Below the pieces are notes generated by a model. That model did not search any database and was not told where the DNA came from. It saw only the letters and a list, made by a program, of their open reading frames with translations. The translations under genes were made by a program, and so were the position numbers. This document shows, in pieces, positions 550 to 25,884 of a stretch of DNA of 29,167 nt. Source of the stretch: a virus. Within the stretch, counting starts at the first letter, position 1. Every line of letters begins with the position of its first letter. The stretch covers positions 1-29,167 of IMG/VR virus record IMGVR_UViG_3300048672_001631; one strand, 5' to 3'.

Positions 550-996
550 ATGAAAATCGAAATGCAATTAGCAAAGAAACTTTATCCCGAGGCACCAGCA
601 TGGTTCCAAAGGGAATTAGAGGATTCGTTTGGCAAAAAATATTTTAGAAAGAGAGACTTCACTGAAATTAAATGCTTCGAAGACGCCTGTGAGGAGTTGG
701 GAATATCAACCGAACAATTCTCGGGCGTAGAAACATCAGACGAAGAAGCCTATAAGAAACTTAAAATTGTAATCCAGGCGATCAACCAGGGATGGACTCC
801 GGACTGGACCAATAGCAATGAGAAGAAATGGTGGCCATATTTTAATTTGTCTTCCGGGTTCGGTTTTTCGTGTACGTATTACTACTACGATTACCCGGGT
901 TCGTATGTCGGTTCGCGCCTTTGCTTTGAATCTCAGGAAAAGGCCGCATATGCAGGAAGGCAATTTCTGAATTTATACAAAGAGTTTTTAACCTAA
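550..996 (+). CDS. DGR target protein 1 with variable repeat
   Basis: 148 aa, a diversified target of the adjacent retroelement. The N-terminal half is helical with a FEDACEELGI segment (about 38-47), then a Trp/Tyr-rich stretch (INQGWTPDWTNSNEKKWWPYF). The variable repeat encodes residues about 99-125. In it, codons that are AAY or other A-bearing codons in the template have become Cys, Tyr, Tyr, Tyr, Pro, Gly, Ser and Tyr, while the framework (SSGFGFS, VGSRLC) is shared with the second target. About 23 residues follow the VR, so the variable patch is internal, unlike the C-terminal VRs of classical targets such as Mtd. No signal peptide or membrane segment is seen. Proteins of this look occur in Bacteroidetes phages (recollection, not searched). 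Its binding partner and location are unknown. Confidence 0.85.
   Translation: MKIEMQLAKKLYPEAPAWFQRELEDSFGKKYFRKRDFTEIKCFEDACEELGISTEQFSGVETSDEEAYKKLKIVIQAINQGWTPDWTNSNEKKWWPYFNLSSGFGFSCTYYYYDYPGSYVGSRLCFESQEKAAYAGRQFLNLYKEFLT
846..924 (+). repeat. DGR variable repeat VR1
   Basis: This 79-bp stretch aligns without gaps to the template repeat 1460-1538. There are 15 mismatches and all 15 are at template adenines (8 to other than G, 7 to G). All 56 non-A template positions are identical. This is the signature of adenine-specific mutagenic retrohoming. Confidence 0.95.
946..953. repeat. Palindrome downstream of VR1
   Basis: GCATATGC is centred 25.5 nt after the end of VR1, the same offset as the hairpin after VR2 (1362-1377). 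It may be a weak equivalent of the target-site hairpin of known DGRs. An 8-bp palindrome alone is poor evidence. Confidence 0.3.
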
Positions 997-1008
997 TACA
1001 TTAATCTC

Positions 1009-1425
1009 ATGGTAACTAAAACAAAAAAATCAGTAAAAAAAGAGAAGGGATTTAATTACAAGACAATTAAAACATTTGAGGATGCTTGTAAAAAACTGGG
1101 AGTAGATCCCACAAAACTTCCTGATGTCTCTGGTATCCTGGAAGAGTTTGCAAAACCGATTATTGCTGCTTATAAACTGATGATAATTTTTAAGGCAATT
1201 AATAACGGATGGAAACCAAATTGGAGTAATTGGCAACAATATAAATATTATCCATGGCTTGAAATTTTGTCTTCCGGGTTCGGTTTTTCGGTTACGTATT
1301 ACGGCTACGGTAACACGGATACGGTTGTCGGTTCGCGCCTTTGCACCGATACTTCTGAGAAGGCTATGTATATAGCCACGCAGTTTGAGGATCTGTACCA
1401 GGATTATTTTCTTTATTCCGAATAA
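1009..1425 (+). CDS. DGR target protein 2 with variable repeat
   Basis: 138 aa, a paralogue of the preceding gene. It shares FEDACKKLGV, the segment AINNGWKPNW, a Tyr/Trp-rich stretch and the SSGFGFS...VGSRLC framework. It has a more basic N-terminus (KTKKSVKKEKGF). VR2 encodes residues about 87-112. The diversified positions read Val, Tyr, Gly, Gly, Asn, Thr, Asp, Thr and Val, different from VR1, so both targets have been rewritten from one template. The gene starts 12 nt after the first target and ends just before the template repeat. The tandem pair probably arose by duplication. No secretion signal is seen, and its function beyond being a variable binding protein is not known. Confidence 0.85.
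   Translation: MVTKTKKSVKKEKGFNYKTIKTFEDACKKLGVDPTKLPDVSGILEEFAKPIIAAYKLMIIFKAINNGWKPNWSNWQQYKYYPWLEILSSGFGFSVTYYGYGNTDTVVGSRLCTDTSEKAMYIATQFEDLYQDYFLYSE
1266..1344 (+). repeat. DGR variable repeat VR2
   Basis: This 79-bp stretch aligns without gaps to the template 1460-1538. There are 14 mismatches, all at template adenines, including three (1498, 1504, 1519) that are unchanged in VR1. Confidence 0.95.
1362..1377. repeat. Hairpin downstream of VR2
   Basis: GGCTAT / ATAGCC form a perfect 6-bp stem around a GTAT loop, extendable to 8 bp with a wobble pair. It begins 18 nt after VR2. Hairpins just downstream of the VR are known in some DGRs to promote homing to the target; this one lies further away than in Bordetella phage. 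The template repeat has no matching hairpin at the same offset. Confidence 0.4.
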
Positions 1426-1439
1426 TTAATACCGGTTGT

Positions 1440-1636
1440 ATGCTGAGAGAGCTGTCAGTTTTGTCTTCCAGGTTCAGTTTTTCGAATACGAATTACAACT
1501 ACGATAACACGAATACGAATGTCAGTTCGCACCTATGCAATAACTGCAGTATAAACCCTGCCCACACGGCAAAAAATAAACTAATAAACGAGAGCGCTGG
1601 TACCTTAAGGGAAGGCGATCTTTTGCAAGCAAAGGC
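1440..1636 (+). ncRNA. DGR template RNA region (TR plus spacer)
   Basis: This is the non-coding interval between the second target gene and the reverse transcriptase. It contains the template repeat at 1460-1538 followed by about 98 nt of spacer. In studied DGRs, the TR and the adjacent spacer are transcribed as one RNA that the reverse transcriptase copies with errors at A. An open frame (1440-1640) runs through it, but its TR part is the Asn-rich template reading, so it is not called a gene. The ends of the RNA are inferred. Confidence 0.7.
1460..1538 (+). repeat. DGR template repeat (TR)
   Basis: 79 bp with 23 adenines. In the reading frame of the targets it has AAT/AAC codons at six sites (1485, 1491, 1497, 1506, 1512, 1518). 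AAY codons are typical of DGR templates because A-mutagenesis of them reaches many amino acids without stops. It differs from VR1 and VR2 only at adenines. Confidence 0.95.
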
Positions 1637-2596
1637 ATGAAGAGATTAAATAATTTATACGAGCGGATCTGCAGCATCGAAAACCTTATGTTGGCAGATT
1701 CTATTGCCCGGAAAGGTAAGTTAACTCAGCCCGGGATTCTGAAGCATGACCAGAACCGCGAGAAGAATATTCAGGATCTGCATATTATGCTAAAGAATAA
1801 AACCTATAAAACATCTGCATATACAACCTTCACAATCTATGAACCAAAGGAAAGACTCATATTCAGGCTTCCATATTATCCAGATCGCATCGTTCATCAT
1901 GCTGTAATGAATGTTCTGGAACCAATCTTTGTATCGGTGTTTACCGTAGATACTTACAGTTGCATTAAAAAACGGGGTATTCATGCAGCTGCGAGAGCTG
2001 TAAAACAAGCATTAAAGGATATTCCTGGTACCCAATACTGCCTGAAGCTCGACATTAAAAAGTTCTATCCGAATGTGGACCATAAGATACTTAAGCAGCT
2101 TCTGAGAAAAAAGATTAAAGATAAGGACCTATTATGGCTGCTCGATGGAATAATTGACAGTGCGGATGGCCTCCCCATCGGGAACTACCTGAGCCAGTAC
2201 CTGGCTAACTTCTACCTGACATATTTTGACCACTGGATGAAAGAGAACCGGCATGTGAAATATTATTTCCGGTATGCCGACGACCTGGTAATATTATCGG
2301 ACAGCAAGCCATATTTACACCAGCTGCTCTCGGAGATCCGCAAGTACCTGCAGAATAATCTCAACCTGATTGTTAAAGATAACTACCAGGTATTCCCAGT
2401 CGATAGCAGGGGGATTGATTTTGTTGGATATGTTTTTCGGCATTCACATATTCTTCTCCGAAAAAGCATTAAACAAAGTTTTGCCAGGGCGATTGCACGG
2501 AATAATAACCCTCAATCCATTGCATCCTACACTGGCTGGGCAAAGCATTGCGACAGTAAAAACTTATTAAACAAATTATTACATGAACCGGTTTAG
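1637..2596 (+). CDS. DGR reverse transcriptase
   Basis: 319 aa, a typical DGR-RT length. It copies the template RNA into adenine-mutagenised cDNA used to overwrite the variable repeats. Visible motifs: motif A LKLDIKKFYPNVDH (136-149, Asp139); motif B GLPIGNYLSQYLAN (178-191), with the Ser-Gln pair characteristic of DGR enzymes; catalytic YADD (213-216); then FVGYVF (262-267) and a thumb segment SYTGW. There is no maturase or endonuclease domain, which argues against a group II intron. The order VR1-VR2-TR-RT on one strand completes the element. No recognisable avd gene lies between the targets and the RT. The gene overlaps the next by 14 nt, suggesting translational coupling. Confidence 0.95.
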   Translation: MKRLNNLYERICSIENLMLADSIARKGKLTQPGILKHDQNREKNIQDLHIMLKNKTYKTSAYTTFTIYEPKERLIFRLPYYPDRIVHHAVMNVLEPIFVSVFTVDTYSCIKKRGIHAAARAVKQALKDIPGTQYCLKLDIKKFYPNVDHKILKQLLRKKIKDKDLLWLLDGIIDSADGLPIGNYLSQYLANFYLTYFDHWMKENRHVKYYFRYADDLVILSDSKPYLHQLLSEIRKYLQNNLNLIVKDNYQVFPVDSRGIDFVGYVFRHSHILLRKSIKQSFARAIARNNNPQSIASYTGWAKHCDSKNLLNKLLHEPV

Positions 2597-3490: not shown

Positions 3491-3907
3491 ATGCCAATCA
3501 AAGCAGAAAATAAGAACAGGTACCCCAAAAACTGGCCAGAGATCAGGGAGAAGATTCGTATGAGAGCCAATGATAAATGCGAAACATGTGGTGTTGTGAA
3601 TCATTCCAGAATTAACAAGCTAACCAGGGAGATTTGTCTCTCAGACGAGGAAGACGCAATAAGGGTTGTTTGCACGGTTGCTCACCTGGACCATACTCCT
3701 GAAAACTGTGGGGAAGAGAATCTAAAGTTGTTATGTCAGCGCTGTCATAACAGATATGATATAAAGCATCGGAAGGAGACGCGCTTAAATACCAGAATGA
3801 AAGATCAGATGCAATTAAATTTTAACATAGGAATATTTAACGATGATCCCTTCCTGATGACAATTACTTTCTCCAGTGGCGAAATGATAAAGATTACCAA
3901 ATATTAA
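3491..3907 (+). CDS. HNH endonuclease
   Basis: 138 aa. Zinc Cys pairs are at C30/C33 (CETC) and C82/C85 (CQRC). Between them are H65-x-D67-H68 and N77 (ENLKLLC), followed by H86-N87, a complete HNH arrangement. HNH proteins next to terminase genes in HK97-like phages help the large terminase cut at packaging sites (known for that group), so a packaging role is likely. A free-standing homing nuclease is the alternative. The C-terminal 45 residues form strand-like sequence without a known motif. Confidence 0.85.
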   Translation: MPIKAENKNRYPKNWPEIREKIRMRANDKCETCGVVNHSRINKLTREICLSDEEDAIRVVCTVAHLDHTPENCGEENLKLLCQRCHNRYDIKHRKETRLNTRMKDQMQLNFNIGIFNDDPFLMTITFSSGEMIKITKY

Positions 3908-3912
3908 AAATA

Positions 3913-4569
3913 ATGAAAGGCACAAAAGTTCTGATAATAAATTATAACCGGCTGACACTCCCGAAGAATATGGCGGAATGGGTTGTTGCTCATGGATGCG
4001 ACCCGGTATTTATAGATAATGCAAGTGACTATCCGCCATTACTGGAATACTACAAGAACTCTCCATTCAAGGTAATAAGGATGAGCCGGAACCACGGGCA
4101 TACTGTTATATGGAAGATCCGCAATATCATCCGGGCGCTGAACATTACCGACAGGTTTATTATGACAGATCCGGACCTTGATCTCTCCGGGATCCCGGGA
4201 GACTTCCTTTCGGTATTAAATAACGGACTCGATAAATATGCGGGTTTTGATAAATGCGCACTGAGCCTGGAGATAGAAGATCTTCCTGATACAGCAGAGG
4301 GTAATTTTATCAGAGAGCATGAAGCCGAATACTGGACCAAGCCTCTTGATGAGGATTACTTCTATGCAGATACAGATACCACTTTCGCATTATACAGGTG
4401 GCCGCTCGGCGCTTATGGACACAGCGCCATCAGGACCAACCGGCCATACACCGCGAAGCATGTTCCCTGGTATTACAGGAACCTCAGGGATATACCTGAA
4501 GATGAGAAATATTATTTTAAGAGCGCTACGGCAAGCAGCAGCGGCAAACAAAGACTCGAACAGTTATGA
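3913..4569 (+). CDS. Glycosyltransferase-like protein, GT-A fold
   Basis: 218 aa. It begins with a nucleotide-sugar-binding strand (VLIINYNRLTLP), followed by FIDNASDYPPL and, at 85-92, the acidic motif TDPDLDLS that fills the place of the metal-binding DxD. A second acidic/Thr-rich segment (ADTDTTFALYR) resembles the acceptor side of family-2-like enzymes. It probably transfers a sugar to an unknown acceptor. It is the first of five sugar genes, and its stop overlaps the next start (ATGA), so they form one operon. No membrane segment is seen, so it should act in the cytoplasm. Confidence 0.75.
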   Translation: MKGTKVLIINYNRLTLPKNMAEWVVAHGCDPVFIDNASDYPPLLEYYKNSPFKVIRMSRNHGHTVIWKIRNIIRALNITDRFIMTDPDLDLSGIPGDFLSVLNNGLDKYAGFDKCALSLEIEDLPDTAEGNFIREHEAEYWTKPLDEDYFYADTDTTFALYRWPLGAYGHSAIRTNRPYTAKHVPWYYRNLRDIPEDEKYYFKSATASSSGKQRLEQL

Positions 4570-5285
4570 AATTAGCTATCCTTACACCATCCAGGAGCAG
4601 ACCTCATGGTTTGTATAAATTCTTCGACAGTATTAATGAAACTATTTCGGGAAAGCATTGCATCGATCTGATTATAAGGATCGATAAGGATGATCCAATG
4701 TTTAATGAATACTATGAAATGTTCCTAAGGATGCGCGGCGAAGCAAGACCAGGTCTGTCTGTGATATTTATGTATAAAGAAAGAGAACGGCTTGCAGTGA
4801 TATGGAACTCTATGATCCCGCTTACAGATGCAGACTGGTTTGTTTGTGGTAACGACGATGAGATCTACCTGACCCCGGAGTGGGATGTGATATTTTTTAA
4901 CAAGGTTTCGCAATATACTCACCCTTATCACATGTTCTGGTTCGACGATGGGTTGCAGCATGGTAATCATGCAGCCTTCCCGATTGTGTCGAAAGAGTGG
5001 ATCGCTGCCCTGGGATATTACTTCCCTGAGATCTTCATTCATAATTACGTGGATAACTGGGTGCTTGATATTGCTTACCGGCTGGGAACCGCTGTTTATG
5101 TTCCCGAGGTAAAGCACCAGCACCTGCATTATTCATTAAACCTCACAGAGTTCGACAAGACTTATGCCGACGGACAGGCAAATGATTCGAATGGCAGAGA
5201 CAGAGCTCTTTATATAAACACCGAGAGGGAGCGCATTAAATGTGTAGAAATCTTAAAACAAAAAATATGGGATCTGGAGCATTAA
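4566..5285 (+). CDS. Glycosyltransferase-like protein, GT-A fold
   Basis: 239 aa. It has an N-terminal MKLAILTPSRSRP strand, IIRIDKDDP at about 36-44, and GNDDEI at 95-100 in the DxD position, followed by LTPEWD. The C-terminal half is rich in His/Trp/Tyr (HNYVDNWVLDIAYRLG, then HQHLHYS), which could form the acceptor pocket. It differs clearly from the preceding enzyme, so the two are not a simple duplication. It overlaps both neighbours, consistent with coupled translation. The transferred sugar and the acceptor cannot be read from sequence. Confidence 0.72.
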   Translation: MKLAILTPSRSRPHGLYKFFDSINETISGKHCIDLIIRIDKDDPMFNEYYEMFLRMRGEARPGLSVIFMYKERERLAVIWNSMIPLTDADWFVCGNDDEIYLTPEWDVIFFNKVSQYTHPYHMFWFDDGLQHGNHAAFPIVSKEWIAALGYYFPEIFIHNYVDNWVLDIAYRLGTAVYVPEVKHQHLHYSLNLTEFDKTYADGQANDSNGRDRALYINTERERIKCVEILKQKIWDLEH

Positions 5286-6583
5286 TAACACTGGGTAAAA
5301 TTTATATAAGCGAGTTCCTGCCGGCAGGCGCCCATCCGAGTTACGAACCGCACGACCTCGTTCTTGAAATGGATAAGGATGGAGCTGCACATCTTTCTGA
5401 ACATGTGCCGGTAAATAAGATGTTCGGTAAATACTGGTACAGGTCCGGCACAAACGAAAGTATGCGCAGGGCTCTCGAGGATGTGGTAAGGAGCATTACC
5501 AGTCTCCCCGAGCGCAGATCCGGAGTGTGGCTCGATATAGCCAGCAACGACGGGACCCTTTTGAGTTTTGTTCCTGAATCATTCGAGCGCATTGGCATAG
5601 ATCCCTGCGAAGTTAGTTTTCTCGAGGAAGCCAGAAAGCATGGTACCATTATCCAGGATTATTTCAGCGCAGATTCTTATGCCAGAGCTACTAAAAAGAA
5701 AGCAAACGTAATTACAAGCATTGCCATGTTTTACGATGTGGTTGACCGCGAGCAGTTTCTTGAAGATATTTACGATACTCTTGCCGATAATGGGCTTTGG
5801 GTATTGCAACTTAGTTATACTCCGCTAATGCTGCGCCAGCTCGCATTCGATAATATCTGCCATGAGCATTACTATTACTACTCGTTAAAAAACATTAAGA
5901 GACTTTTTGAGAGATATGGCTTTAAGATAATGGATTGTGTGCTTAACGATGTTAATGGGGGAAGCTTCAGGTTATATGTTATGAAATCAAGTGCGAACAA
6001 TGAGGCTTTTGCCGGGAAGCCATACAGGGATGTTTGCGATATGAGAATTGATTCACTTCTCGAACTTGAGGAAACGATAAAGCCTGATGCTCCTTTTACC
6101 TGGCTGGTATTTCTGAAAGACATTCTTAAGCTTGGGCGGGAATTAAAAGATTTTATTGTAGCGCAAAAGGCTATGGGAAAGACAATTTGGGGTTATGGCG
6201 CATCGACAAAAGGCAATACACTCCTGCAATACTTCGATATAAATTCCGGACATCTGGACGCCATCGCGGATCGGAGCCCGTACAAGCAGGGACTTTATAC
6301 AGTGGGTACCAACATTCCAATAAAAAGCGAGGAGGAGATGCGCCAGGCGGATCCCGACTATCTTTTTATTCTCCCGTGGCATTTTATTGATGAGTTTGTT
6401 GAACGCGAAAAGGAATACCTGTTTAAGGGCGGCGCCTTTATTGTGCCCTGCCCGAAACTTAAAATAATAAGCCGGCAGGCAACCGACGGGGAAATTGAGA
6501 GCTGGGTTTATTCGAACACATACCAGGAGACGAGCCCTGAGATTGAGGCTTATATAAGGAAACTCAAAAACTGCAGAAAATGA
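5267..6583 (+). CDS. SAM-dependent sugar C-methyltransferase-like protein
   Basis: About 438 aa from the ATG at 5267; an in-frame ATG at 5240 would add nine residues. 5267 is preferred for its A-rich leader and smaller overlap (19 nt). The SAM-binding motif is VWLDIASNDGTLL (near 87-99). The C-terminal half carries WGYGASTKGNTLL and DPDYLFILPWHF, hallmarks of the C-terminal domain of deoxysugar C-methyltransferases. Family members usually start with a Cys-rich zinc-binding domain; here that region (ITLGKIYISEFLP) has lost its cysteines. It probably methylates a nucleotide sugar used by the neighbouring glycosyltransferases. The stop overlaps the next start (ATGA). Confidence 0.85.
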   Translation: MGSGALITLGKIYISEFLPAGAHPSYEPHDLVLEMDKDGAAHLSEHVPVNKMFGKYWYRSGTNESMRRALEDVVRSITSLPERRSGVWLDIASNDGTLLSFVPESFERIGIDPCEVSFLEEARKHGTIIQDYFSADSYARATKKKANVITSIAMFYDVVDREQFLEDIYDTLADNGLWVLQLSYTPLMLRQLAFDNICHEHYYYYSLKNIKRLFERYGFKIMDCVLNDVNGGSFRLYVMKSSANNEAFAGKPYRDVCDMRIDSLLELEETIKPDAPFTWLVFLKDILKLGRELKDFIVAQKAMGKTIWGYGASTKGNTLLQYFDINSGHLDAIADRSPYKQGLYTVGTNIPIKSEEEMRQADPDYLFILPWHFIDEFVEREKEYLFKGGAFIVPCPKLKIISRQATDGEIESWVYSNTYQETSPEIEAYIRKLKNCRK

Positions 6584-7263
6584 CAGGGATAACAGTGGTA
6601 TATAACACAGCTGATCTTTTTGAGATTGCATATAACAGCTTCAGAAAGTTTTATCCAACCATGAGGCTTATGATAATCGACGGGAGTGAAAAGAATAACG
6701 CCTGTCATAATTATATTGCCGGGCTAAGAAATAATGCGAACAATGTATGTATCCAGTTTAACTACAATATCGGGCACGGACGAGGGATGAATTACGCACT
6801 GCGGAAATGCGGAACAAAACGGGCCCTGGTATTTGACAGCGATATTGAAATACTCCAGGATCCTCTCCCTGAAATGGAGAAGCTGATGACTCCTGATACC
6901 TATGGCACCGGATGGGTTTATGAGATCGGGCGCGATGGGTACGATTACGGCACTCCCGGCTTTAACCATAAGGAGCCGATACCATACATGCACCCTTATT
7001 TTATGCTTCTGAATGTTGAGCAGTATTTTAAGTATTACAGGTTTGTTCACCACGGAGCTCCATGTTATAAGGCAATGGTGGACCTGTACGATAAAGGGCA
7101 ATCGTGGAGGGTTGTTTCCTGCCCTATACTTACCGGACATACGAGCGGAGAAGGGATGAACTGGAAGGGAAAGCCTAATCCTTATGTTAAGCATGACTTC
7201 GGGGGAACGCGGATGAGCAACAAGAAACAGGGCAAGGGAGAAATAGAAGGAACCTGGGAATAA
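6580..7263 (+). CDS. Family-2-like glycosyltransferase
   Basis: 227 aa, GT-A fold. It opens with MTGITVVYNT and then MIIDGSE, and has NIGHGRGMNYAL (63-74), the GT2 segment that precedes the metal site. The metal-binding motif VFDSDIE lies at 84-90. The middle contains GTGWVYEIGRDG and PYMHPYFML. The absence of membrane helices suggests a cytoplasmic enzyme acting on a soluble or virion acceptor rather than a polysaccharide synthase. It ends 10 nt before the next glycosyltransferase. Confidence 0.85.
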   Translation: MTGITVVYNTADLFEIAYNSFRKFYPTMRLMIIDGSEKNNACHNYIAGLRNNANNVCIQFNYNIGHGRGMNYALRKCGTKRALVFDSDIEILQDPLPEMEKLMTPDTYGTGWVYEIGRDGYDYGTPGFNHKEPIPYMHPYFMLLNVEQYFKYYRFVHHGAPCYKAMVDLYDKGQSWRVVSCPILTGHTSGEGMNWKGKPNPYVKHDFGGTRMSNKKQGKGEIEGTWE

Positions 7264-7273
7264 AACAAACATT

Positions 7274-7858
7274 ATGAAACTTCACATTATAGCAACGGCA
7301 TTCAACAGACCACTTGAGCTCCAGAGACTGGTTTATGATTTACTTCTTCAGACTGATCCGAACTGGACGCTCCATATTATCCACGACGGACCGGTGCTTA
7401 AGAAAGTAGTGGATTCGATAAATTCCCTGAAGGATCCACGGATTGAGTTTATAATTACTCCGAAGGTGAATGGGTTCTGGGGGCACCCTAACCGGAGCAG
7501 GATGCTTAAAGAGATACAGGGCGATCCTGATGATTATGTTCTTATTACGAATGATGATAATCAGTACATTAAAATATTTGTGGAAACATTCTTATCGTTT
7601 GGTTCTCCGAGTGTTGGGATAATCTATTGCAATACGATTCATAACTATATCGACTATGAGATACTTTATACCAGGATAAAGGTCGGACATATAGACATGG
7701 GTTCTTTTGTAGTGAAGCTCGATGTTGCAAAGAAGGTTGGCTTCAAGCATACTGTTGAGGTTGCTGACGGGATGTACGCGGAAGAATGTGCGCTGTTCTG
7801 TAAGAAGAATAAAATGAGGATAAAGGGAATTAATAAGGCACTCTTCATTCATAATTAG
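7274..7858 (+). CDS. Family-2-like glycosyltransferase, short
   Basis: 194 aa. It begins with LHIIATAFNRPLELQRLV and IIHDGP, a typical GT2 start, and has ITNDDNQY at 91-98 for metal and sugar-nucleotide binding. A later segment GHIDMGSFVVK is like the acceptor-side motif of small glycosyltransferases. It is shorter than most free-standing GT2 enzymes, lacking a long C-terminal region, but has no internal break. It is the last sugar gene before the terminase. Acceptor unknown. Confidence 0.82.
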   Translation: MKLHIIATAFNRPLELQRLVYDLLLQTDPNWTLHIIHDGPVLKKVVDSINSLKDPRIEFIITPKVNGFWGHPNRSRMLKEIQGDPDDYVLITNDDNQYIKIFVETFLSFGSPSVGIIYCNTIHNYIDYEILYTRIKVGHIDMGSFVVKLDVAKKVGFKHTVEVADGMYAEECALFCKKNKMRIKGINKALFIHN

Positions 7859-24030: not shown

Positions 24031-25884
24031 ATGAGATTTAGTCCTTTGGGCAGATTCAACCATGTTGGAGCTGCTGTAAATTCGTTAAAAAGTTACTGGA
24101 CGCAACAAATAGGAACTATCATCACAGATGATTTTGCAAGAGAATCTCTTGGTGCGAATTGGGATATAACTTCTTTATCTACGGTTAGTGCTGCTTGTGA
24201 TGGAAGTAAATTAATTTTATCACATACAGGCGCAAATACATCAGAAGAAGCGGTACTGTGGAAAGATTTGATGTCGTTAGAAAATTGGGAGTGTGAGATT
24301 ATAGTAAAACCGAGTGAAAAAAGTGCTAATTCATACGGGTCCGCAATAAGATTCAGTTCTTCTGACACAGTAAATAAATTTAATATGTCAGTTACGTTAA
24401 ACATGACAACTGACGCTACATACGGAGGTTTATTGTTTATTTCAAATAATGATAATACAGGAATACTTTATCAATGTCCTACAAAAGTTACAATAACAAA
24501 TGGGTGTTCTTATTCTATTTATGCAAAAAGAGAAAAGAATGTTTTTACAATAAGAGCAGAAAATTTAACTGATCATTCCTCTGCAAGTGGTTCTTATACT
24601 TATCCTACATTCTACTCAACCCCTGATAAAAGTTTTCTTATAAATCAGGGGAAGTTAGGATTTCAATCAGTAAGCGGAGCAATAAACATGACTTATGAAG
24701 TTACTTATTGTAATATAAACTCGGTTGCGTTATTGCATCCTAAAACAAATGTTATCGGTGATTCAATTTCTGCCGGAGGTTATGTTTCTAATTCAATAGA
24801 AGACAGGTATTATGATAGGTTATTCGGCAATACTATTACTTATTATAATCTAATGGCTACCGGAGGAGCAAAGATTGCAGATTTAGTATTAAGAGAAGCA
24901 GAAGTAGTAAGATATAAGCCTAAGTATGCTTTGGTAATGGTGGGTGCAAATGACTCTTCCACAAATCATACAGAGTGGCAGACTTCATACGAAACCTATC
25001 TTGATTACTTAATTACAAATGGAATTACACCGATTGTTTGTTATCCGACACCACAAACAAATGATATAACATGGATGAATACTGTTATAGATTCAATTTG
25101 TGCAGCAAGATCAGTAAAGGTTATAAATACATTTACACCTTTAAAAGCTGTTGCAAATAATACATTACACGCAGATTATAATGGAGGTGATGGATTGCAT
25201 CCTAATTCGGCAGGGCATACATTAATTTCAAGCACAATAATTACAGCCGCACCGGAATTATTAAAAGGAACTGTACTTCATACTGAAGTAAAAGATGCTG
25301 ATGGTAATACCTATACTCCGGTTGTGATAGGCACTCAAACATGGTTACAGCAATCATTAAAAACTACAAAATATAATAACGGTGATGCAATACCAAATGA
25401 AACTGTCGGTGCTACATGGGCAGGACTTACAACGGGTGCATATTGTTGGTACAATAATGACAAGGCGACTTACGGGGATGAGTATGGTGTTTTATATAAC
25501 GGATATGTTGTAAAAGATGCGAGAGGTGTTGCTCCTGCTGGTTATCATATTGCAACGGCAGCAGACTGGGCAACTCTTTCAACATATTTAGGAGGCAATG
25601 CAGTTTCAGGAGGTAAGTTAAAAGAAATAGGAACAGAACATTGGCAGAATAATGCTGCATTAGGTTCAAATGAAGTAAGGTTTTTAGGAATTGGAAACGG
25701 GCAAAGACTTGTCACTTCTGGGAATTTTGGATATGTTCATCAATATAACCCCTACTGGACTTCAACTATTTTTGATGCGACACATAATACAAGGTATTAT
25801 TTAGCTTATGATTCACTTGGAATAGGAACAGATGATACAAGTCATCTTTCATGTGGTCATCTTATAAGATGTGTAAAGGATTAG
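24031..25884 (+). CDS. Tail adhesin with SGNH esterase and FISUMP domain
   Basis: 617 aa in three parts. Residues 30-230 are strand-rich and resemble a concanavalin-type sugar-binding domain. Residues 237-410 are an SGNH hydrolase: GDS with the nucleophile Ser245, GAND with Asn307 and the catalytic DGLH (Asp387/His390). Residues 415-617 form a FISUMP domain (DADGNTYTPVVIGTQTWLQQ, PAGYHIATAADW, ending LIRCVKD), a C-type-lectin-like fold typical of Bacteroidetes. It is clearly richer in A and T than its neighbours, suggesting separate acquisition. It likely binds and deacetylates host surface polysaccharide. The C-terminus is not related to the DGR template found here. Confidence 0.85.
   Translation: MRFSPLGRFNHVGAAVNSLKSYWTQQIGTIITDDFARESLGANWDITSLSTVSAACDGSKLILSHTGANTSEEAVLWKDLMSLENWECEIIVKPSEKSANSYGSAIRFSSSDTVNKFNMSVTLNMTTDATYGGLLFISNNDNTGILYQCPTKVTITNGCSYSIYAKREKNVFTIRAENLTDHSSASGSYTYPTFYSTPDKSFLINQGKLGFQSVSGAINMTYEVTYCNINSVALLHPKTNVIGDSISAGGYVSNSIEDRYYDRLFGNTITYYNLMATGGAKIADLVLREAEVVRYKPKYALVMVGANDSSTNHTEWQTSYETYLDYLITNGITPIVCYPTPQTNDITWMNTVIDSICAARSVKVINTFTPLKAVANNTLHADYNGGDGLHPNSAGHTLISSTIITAAPELLKGTVLHTEVKDADGNTYTPVVIGTQTWLQQSLKTTKYNNGDAIPNETVGATWAGLTTGAYCWYNNDKATYGDEYGVLYNGYVVKDARGVAPAGYHIATAADWATLSTYLGGNAVSGGKLKEIGTEHWQNNAALGSNEVRFLGIGNGQRLVTSGNFGYVHQYNPYWTSTIFDATHNTRYYLAYDSLGIGTDDTSHLSCGHLIRCVKD

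Follow-up and report, generated by a model that had tools for sequence, protein, structure and literature searches.

Avd is essential in the diversity-generating retroelements (DGRs) that have been studied at the bench. In BPP-1, IMH and IMH* marks set the direction of transfer (PMC3240598) and the spacer recruits RT-Avd (PMC12875486), and in the DUSEL4 DGRs IMH* and IMH are told apart by an A-to-G marking, TGGAAT/TGGGGT (PMC4372165). Lineage 3 DGRs have been described as avd-less, with SRLC/A cited as a motif of CLec3/lineage 3 VRs (PMC7290462). Multi-VR cassettes have been reported too, and the G2/G4 set is said to cluster in one RT clade (PMC6642488).

The locus described here lies in a window of 29,167 nt, the whole stretch of DNA that was analysed, from virus record IMGVR_UViG_3300048672_001631; the virus carrying it is a phage of the Bacteroidota group. 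The features of the cassette are these:

550-996, + strand: target gene A (TR-distal), 148 aa, phrog_11581-like (4e-23)
846-924, + strand: VR1, 15 mismatches to TR, 15 at TR adenines, five being fixed edge sites
1009-1425, + strand: target gene B (TR-proximal), 138 aa, phrog_11581 (1.7e-30), paralogue of A
1266-1344, + strand: VR2, 14 mismatches to TR, 14 at TR adenines, five being fixed edge sites
907-924 and 1327-1344, + strand: proposed IMH (VR side), with GGT, CGC and CTT codons
1460-1538, + strand: TR, 23 A in 79 nt, 18 of them inner (1485-1519) and five edge marks
1470, 1476, 1524, 1531 and 1535, + strand: TR edge marks, at which VR and TR differ in nearly all relatives
1521-1538, + strand: proposed IMH* (TR side), with AGT, CAC and CTA codons
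1554-1632, + strand: TR-RT spacer, predicted structured RNA, probable relative of Rfam RT-17 (RF03020)
1637-2596, + strand: RT of DGR type, 319 aa, Pfam RVT_1 (1.3e-19), phrog_1423 Reverse transcriptase (1.9e-123)
2583-2894, + strand: phrog_19665 protein of 103 aa with an OB-like model, proposed RT partner; its start codon falls within the RT gene

Cassette Layout

An earlier note on this DNA had called a complete DGR in a phage, one template serving two target genes, and recomputation of the TR and VRs upholds that call. The mismatches are confined to template adenines in both VRs (15/15 and 14/14, none elsewhere, as the note had it), a pattern with a hypergeometric chance of 9e-11 for VR1 and 7e-10 for VR2. 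The RT adjoining the TR has a YxDD motif and SQ in motif B (GNYLSQ and YADD, both intact and both read correctly before), and the VRs lie in the C-terminal part of the target ORFs, ending 23 residues before the end of the 148-aa protein and 26 before that of the 138-aa one. The two targets are indeed tandem paralogues, 46% identical over residues 16-134. The order is target A, target B, TR, RT and then the ORF at 2583-2894. This last ORF overlaps the RT stop and belongs to the cassette too, and the span of 550-2596 given earlier falls short at its end; the structured spacer RNA, the RT partner gene and the fixed edge sites had also been overlooked. A search of both strands of the 29,167-nt window gave no further VR-like place, and nothing resembling avd turned up when the ORFs of the cassette and those next to it were scanned against Pfam and PHROGs.

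In a Pfam scan, a terminase small subunit lies at 63-539 of the window. Downstream of the cassette there is an HNH-like ORF (3491-3907), which in some relatives has homologues behind the cassette, more or less far from it, and between this gene and the large terminase runs a set of ORFs resembling glycosyltransferases and a methyltransferase (3913-7858). The Fib_succ_major domain has been reported as a DGR target in other systems; in this window it occurs together with a GDSL lipase domain in the protein at 24031-25884, from which a VR of TR 1460-1538 is absent.

The spacer between TR and RT (1554-1632) matches RT-17 over the full model at 27.5 bits (E 0.018), the gathering threshold being 40.4 bits, and the spacers of two relatives score above it (L083, 44.0; L062, 43.2). 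An alignment of 62 spacers contains compensatory changes in seven of the eight predicted pairs. Judged from these sequences, the spacer forms a covarying RNA that is probably a relative of Rfam RT-17, in line with BPP-1, where RT-Avd is recruited by the spacer.

Recent Change in Relatives

A custom TR/VR finder was run on RT relatives from 80 IMG/VR loci and 80 loci of bacterial genomes. The two-VR layout recurs in nearly all IMG/VR relatives in which the upstream region is present, some having three VRs, and the arrangement of two (sometimes three or four) targets, TR and RT is kept in more than 100 Bacteroidota phages and prophages, the cassette recurring in the 80 IMG/VR loci and in dozens of genomes of Bacteroidota; orthologues of target A occupy the same place in relatives. 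In the RT tree, the RTs of small-target cassettes form essentially one clade, together with a small second one.

Contigs of other samples that are about 99% or more identical elsewhere show 9-12 VR differences at TR adenines and identical TRs, and the second VR is often identical. For example, L004 or L008 compared with L009 has one difference outside the repeats and 12 within the 78 positions of the VR, every one of them opposite a TR adenine; L018/L020 and L019/L023 have nine VR differences, all at TR adenines, and the other VR is the same in both. Because the relatives differ almost only inside VRs at TR adenines, the DGR class is active, and because one VR has changed with the other often identical, the two targets have been rewritten independently and recently in nature. 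By these sequence comparisons, activity is established for relatives of the phage. The earlier note had found the system working-looking and had named as signs to the contrary an inactivated RT motif or VRs that differ as often at non-A positions as at adenines; the near-identical relatives differ at TR adenines and the RT motifs are intact, so for the family its description holds. A decayed DGR carrying old VR differences would be compatible with the fact that the A-specific variation, and hence the activity data, come from close relatives, none directly from the phage itself; with intact RT motifs, zero non-A mismatches in both VRs and recent VR-only divergence in the relatives, we consider such decay highly improbable.

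Edge Adenines

The earlier counts of 15 and 14 adenine mismatches stand, but the reading of all of them as products of mutagenesis does not, as five per VR are fixed across the family. Among 177 VR/TR pairs, all four bases are seen in the VRs at the inner TR adenines (1485-1519 here). Where the TR has A, the VR has G at site 1524 in 148/148 cases and at site 1531 in 144/144, and T at site 1535 in 125/131; at sites 1470 and 1476, the VR almost always has G. With the five edge differences fixed family-wide, the diversified positions therefore number 10 in VR1 and 9 in VR2, out of 18. The 18 diversifiable adenines give 4^18, or about 7e10, DNA variants.

One could see in the edge differences (1470, 1476, 1524, 1531, 1535) nothing but ordinary adenine mutagenesis, kept by selection for Gly or Arg: four of the five changes result in one of these residues, and G121 and R123 are invariant across the target family. 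Site 1535, however, falls on the third position of a codon for Leu, at which CTA to CTT is synonymous, and protein selection therefore offers no explanation for the fixed T; the VR has CTT even opposite a TR with CTG or CTC. As an A-to-G marking of IMH* versus IMH is also known from the DUSEL4 DGRs (TGGAAT/TGGGGT; PMC4372165), we find selection for Gly and Arg a rather unlikely account of the pattern. By analogy with the known marks, the three 3′ sites (1524, 1531 and 1535) look like IMH/IMH* differences that would set the direction of transfer, and the two 5′ sites (1470 and 1476) may be structural Gly. A conserved hairpin, the BPP-1-type feature, was not found within 60 nt after the VR.

Target Proteins

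The target family, which could not be named earlier, now has a name, phrog_11581, and still no functional annotation: Pfam, PHROGs, PADLOC and PDB sequence searches returned this function-less family only, and it may be among the 24 clusters of Roux et al. 2021. The AF2 model of target A is helical (pLDDT 86), with low confidence in the VR loop; its fold found no match in PDB and, in BFVD, matched uncharacterized phage proteins, several of them crAss-like. Pfam and PDB likewise gave no match to a C-lectin fold around the VR, in a region where the loop is modelled with low confidence. The VR ends in (V)GSRLC and resembles CLec3 VRs in motif only; because this end contains SRLC, a reduced C-lectin identity is conceivable, and on the strength of that motif the targets may be reduced C-lectins.

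The genes around target cassettes are methyltransferases, terminases, primases and recombination genes, with one tail-gene match in a Pfam scan of 109 neighbours, and no more than three of 134 targets have a hydrophobic segment (a 19-residue stretch above 1.6 hydropathy). The VRs of 13 near-complete contigs all fall in the small target family, and a tail-protein VR was sought in these relatives and not found. The contig of L028 has a remote gene, about 40 kb away, that fuses two target domains and carries a VR, and the contig of L036 has an extra copy of the small target. A 326-aa frame at L098:15494-16252 (G011:C1:55494-56252) consists of two fused target domains with the TR about 40 kb away, and both its VRs are A-only, with 15 and 16 mismatches and none elsewhere.

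LoVEphage and Versailles each have a homologue that is a second, remote DGR target in a DNA-metabolism region. In LoVEphage, there are zero non-A mismatches in 60-nt windows, and the TR is beside the RT with the target remote; in Versailles (L086:4875-5456), 14 of 15 mismatches are at A and the TR is about 44 kb away. The Versailles gene, with its remote second VR, encodes a small protein beside recombination genes and is annotated 'tail protein'. This annotation would agree with the targets being receptor-binding or other virion proteins, as those of most phage DGRs are, with genes that simply sit outside the tail module. The (V)GSRLC end would agree with it too, given the citing of SRLC/A for CLec3/lineage 3 VRs (PMC7290462), as would the fact that in clades 1, 4 and 6 tail proteins make up most of the known viral DGR targets (PMC8144416). 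We doubt it nonetheless, in view of the small size of the proteins (148 and 138 aa), their mostly helical model without a PDB fold match, the DNA-processing neighbours with a single tail gene among 109, and the place of the LoVEphage and Versailles homologues as second, remote targets. Going by the neighbourhood, the targets are probably non-structural proteins encoded among DNA-processing genes, nearly all of them without a hydrophobic segment, with a smaller chance of being virion or injected proteins; what is said below of their function, site of action and ligand we infer.

Proposed RT Partner

The protein at 2583-2894 matches phrog_19665 only. Its AF2 model (pLDDT 87) has an OB-like strand order, and against PDB it gave weak matches (best E 0.09), many of them OB domains; as modelled, the fold is OB-like. 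All small-target loci that could be assessed have the gene (106/106), as do 35 of 55 loci with other RTs, in some of which it lies between target and TR; in some RT relatives it was not detected. With tblastn, the protein was found in a phage collection only in ANMV-1 and vir525, both archaeal viruses, directly after a DGR RT. Five loci (L068, L143, L177, L229 and L230) have the RT and the OB-like protein fused, and the three fusions placed in the RT tree sit on separate branches. The fusion at L229:514-1824 involves a divergent RT (SIGLRSSQG, YCDD) and was recovered by the OB search alone. The 14 cassette-bearing whole genomes have exactly one OB copy each. When 1,189 Bacteroidota genomes, taken in three draws with some overlap (399, 395 and 395), were searched in an RT-blind way, all 11 new confident matches were beside or fused to an RT; one marginal, interrupted match (L234) was away from it.

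Small OB proteins are common in phages, and a protein with an OB-like model could be an unrelated single-strand-binding protein that hitch-hikes beside the RT. Such a passenger would hardly be expected to co-occur in 106/106 loci, to be fused to the RT in five, to be found almost never away from it (11/11 confident RT-blind matches, one copy per genome) and to keep this company as its position relative to the RT varies, one of the positions being between target and TR, and we hold it to be quite improbable. As this DGR branch has been described as avd-less (PMC7290462), we propose an Avd-like role for the OB-like protein: it would stand in for the missing Avd and act in cDNA synthesis or homing. 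A literature search on DGRs, OB folds and accessory proteins gave no such DGR partner in the accessible parts of the texts, and a mention in the lineage-defining work of Wu et al. is possible. The broader view, to which we give an even chance, is that phrog_19665 is a dedicated nucleic-acid-binding RT partner, replacing Avd in a large avd-less branch of Bacteroidota phages and archaeal viruses, and that in the small-target clade the machinery serves a non-structural family, so that the phage would evolve an intracellular binder and not its tail.

Discussion

Overall, we think it very likely that the cassette is a working avd-less (lineage 3) phage DGR in which RT, folded spacer and OB protein copy the TR and IMH-guided homing rewrites two non-structural paralogues, the VR loop binding a changing partner. 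A transcript running from the TR through the folded, RT-17-like spacer would be copied by the RT, which would misread template adenines; the OB-like protein (2583-2894), translated together with the RT, would help it. The cDNA would then replace the inner part of either VR, with the VR-specific edge sequences (IMH) being recognised; these differ from those of the TR (IMH*) at fixed adenines, and the TR would therefore be spared. Each homing event would rewrite one of the two small paralogues independently. With the VR loop these proteins would bind a partner that itself changes fast; a host factor, for instance a defence protein, is the likeliest candidate.

For a lineage described as avd-less, an OB-like protein that is conserved and fused to the RT would fill a gap and provide a second, testable way of achieving targeted mutagenesis. 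Should the small targets have an intracellular role, the use of DGRs by phages goes beyond host-range switching. The small pair of proteins (319 + 103 aa), with about 100 nt of spacer RNA, would be attractive for laboratory directed evolution.

Compared with BPP-1 (mtd-avd-TR-brt), the locus shares A-only TR/VR changes, a DGR-type RT, VRs near the C-terminus, a proposed IMH/IMH* difference and a structured TR-RT spacer. Unlike BPP-1, which has Avd, it has a linked OB-like protein and no avd that we could find; its targets are two small, probably non-tail proteins with 23-26 residues after the VR, and the hairpin after the VR is not conserved. With the avd-less lineage 3 (crAssphage LMMB and others; PMC7290462), it has in common the target-TR-RT order, the absence of avd and the SRLC of the VR, the lineage being assigned by these features. 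RTs of crAss-like phages are 50-59% identical to RT 1637-2596; the target of the crAss DGR, in contrast, is a 486-aa tail-collar fibre, and the OB gene was not detected in the crAss cr52_1 locus.

The G2/G4 cassettes, as far as their accessible description goes, similarly use one TR for several VRs in several target genes, whereas the target family, RT partner and edge marks do not appear in that part of the description (PMC6642488). The second target of Quimbyvirus (Benler et al., PMC8008677) resembles ours in that a hypervariable protein is encoded away from the structural module, with methyltransferases and a tRNA ligase close by; in LoVEphage the homologue, a verified VR, has the same context as this non-structural target, a context that suggests LoVEphage to be Quimbyvirus-like. 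Quimbyvirus differs in having one structural and one non-structural target, whereas in our case the small family accounts for all the VRs found. Tentaclin DGRs also have two targets each (PMC10743442), but these are C-lectin proteins that differ from each other, target 1 having 569-579 aa, and not two small paralogues. Set against these systems, the DGR is ordinary in mechanism, and both the two-target design and a non-structural target have precedents; within the literature and databases that could be searched, the new parts are the RT-linked OB-like protein and a whole clade dedicated to small non-tail targets.
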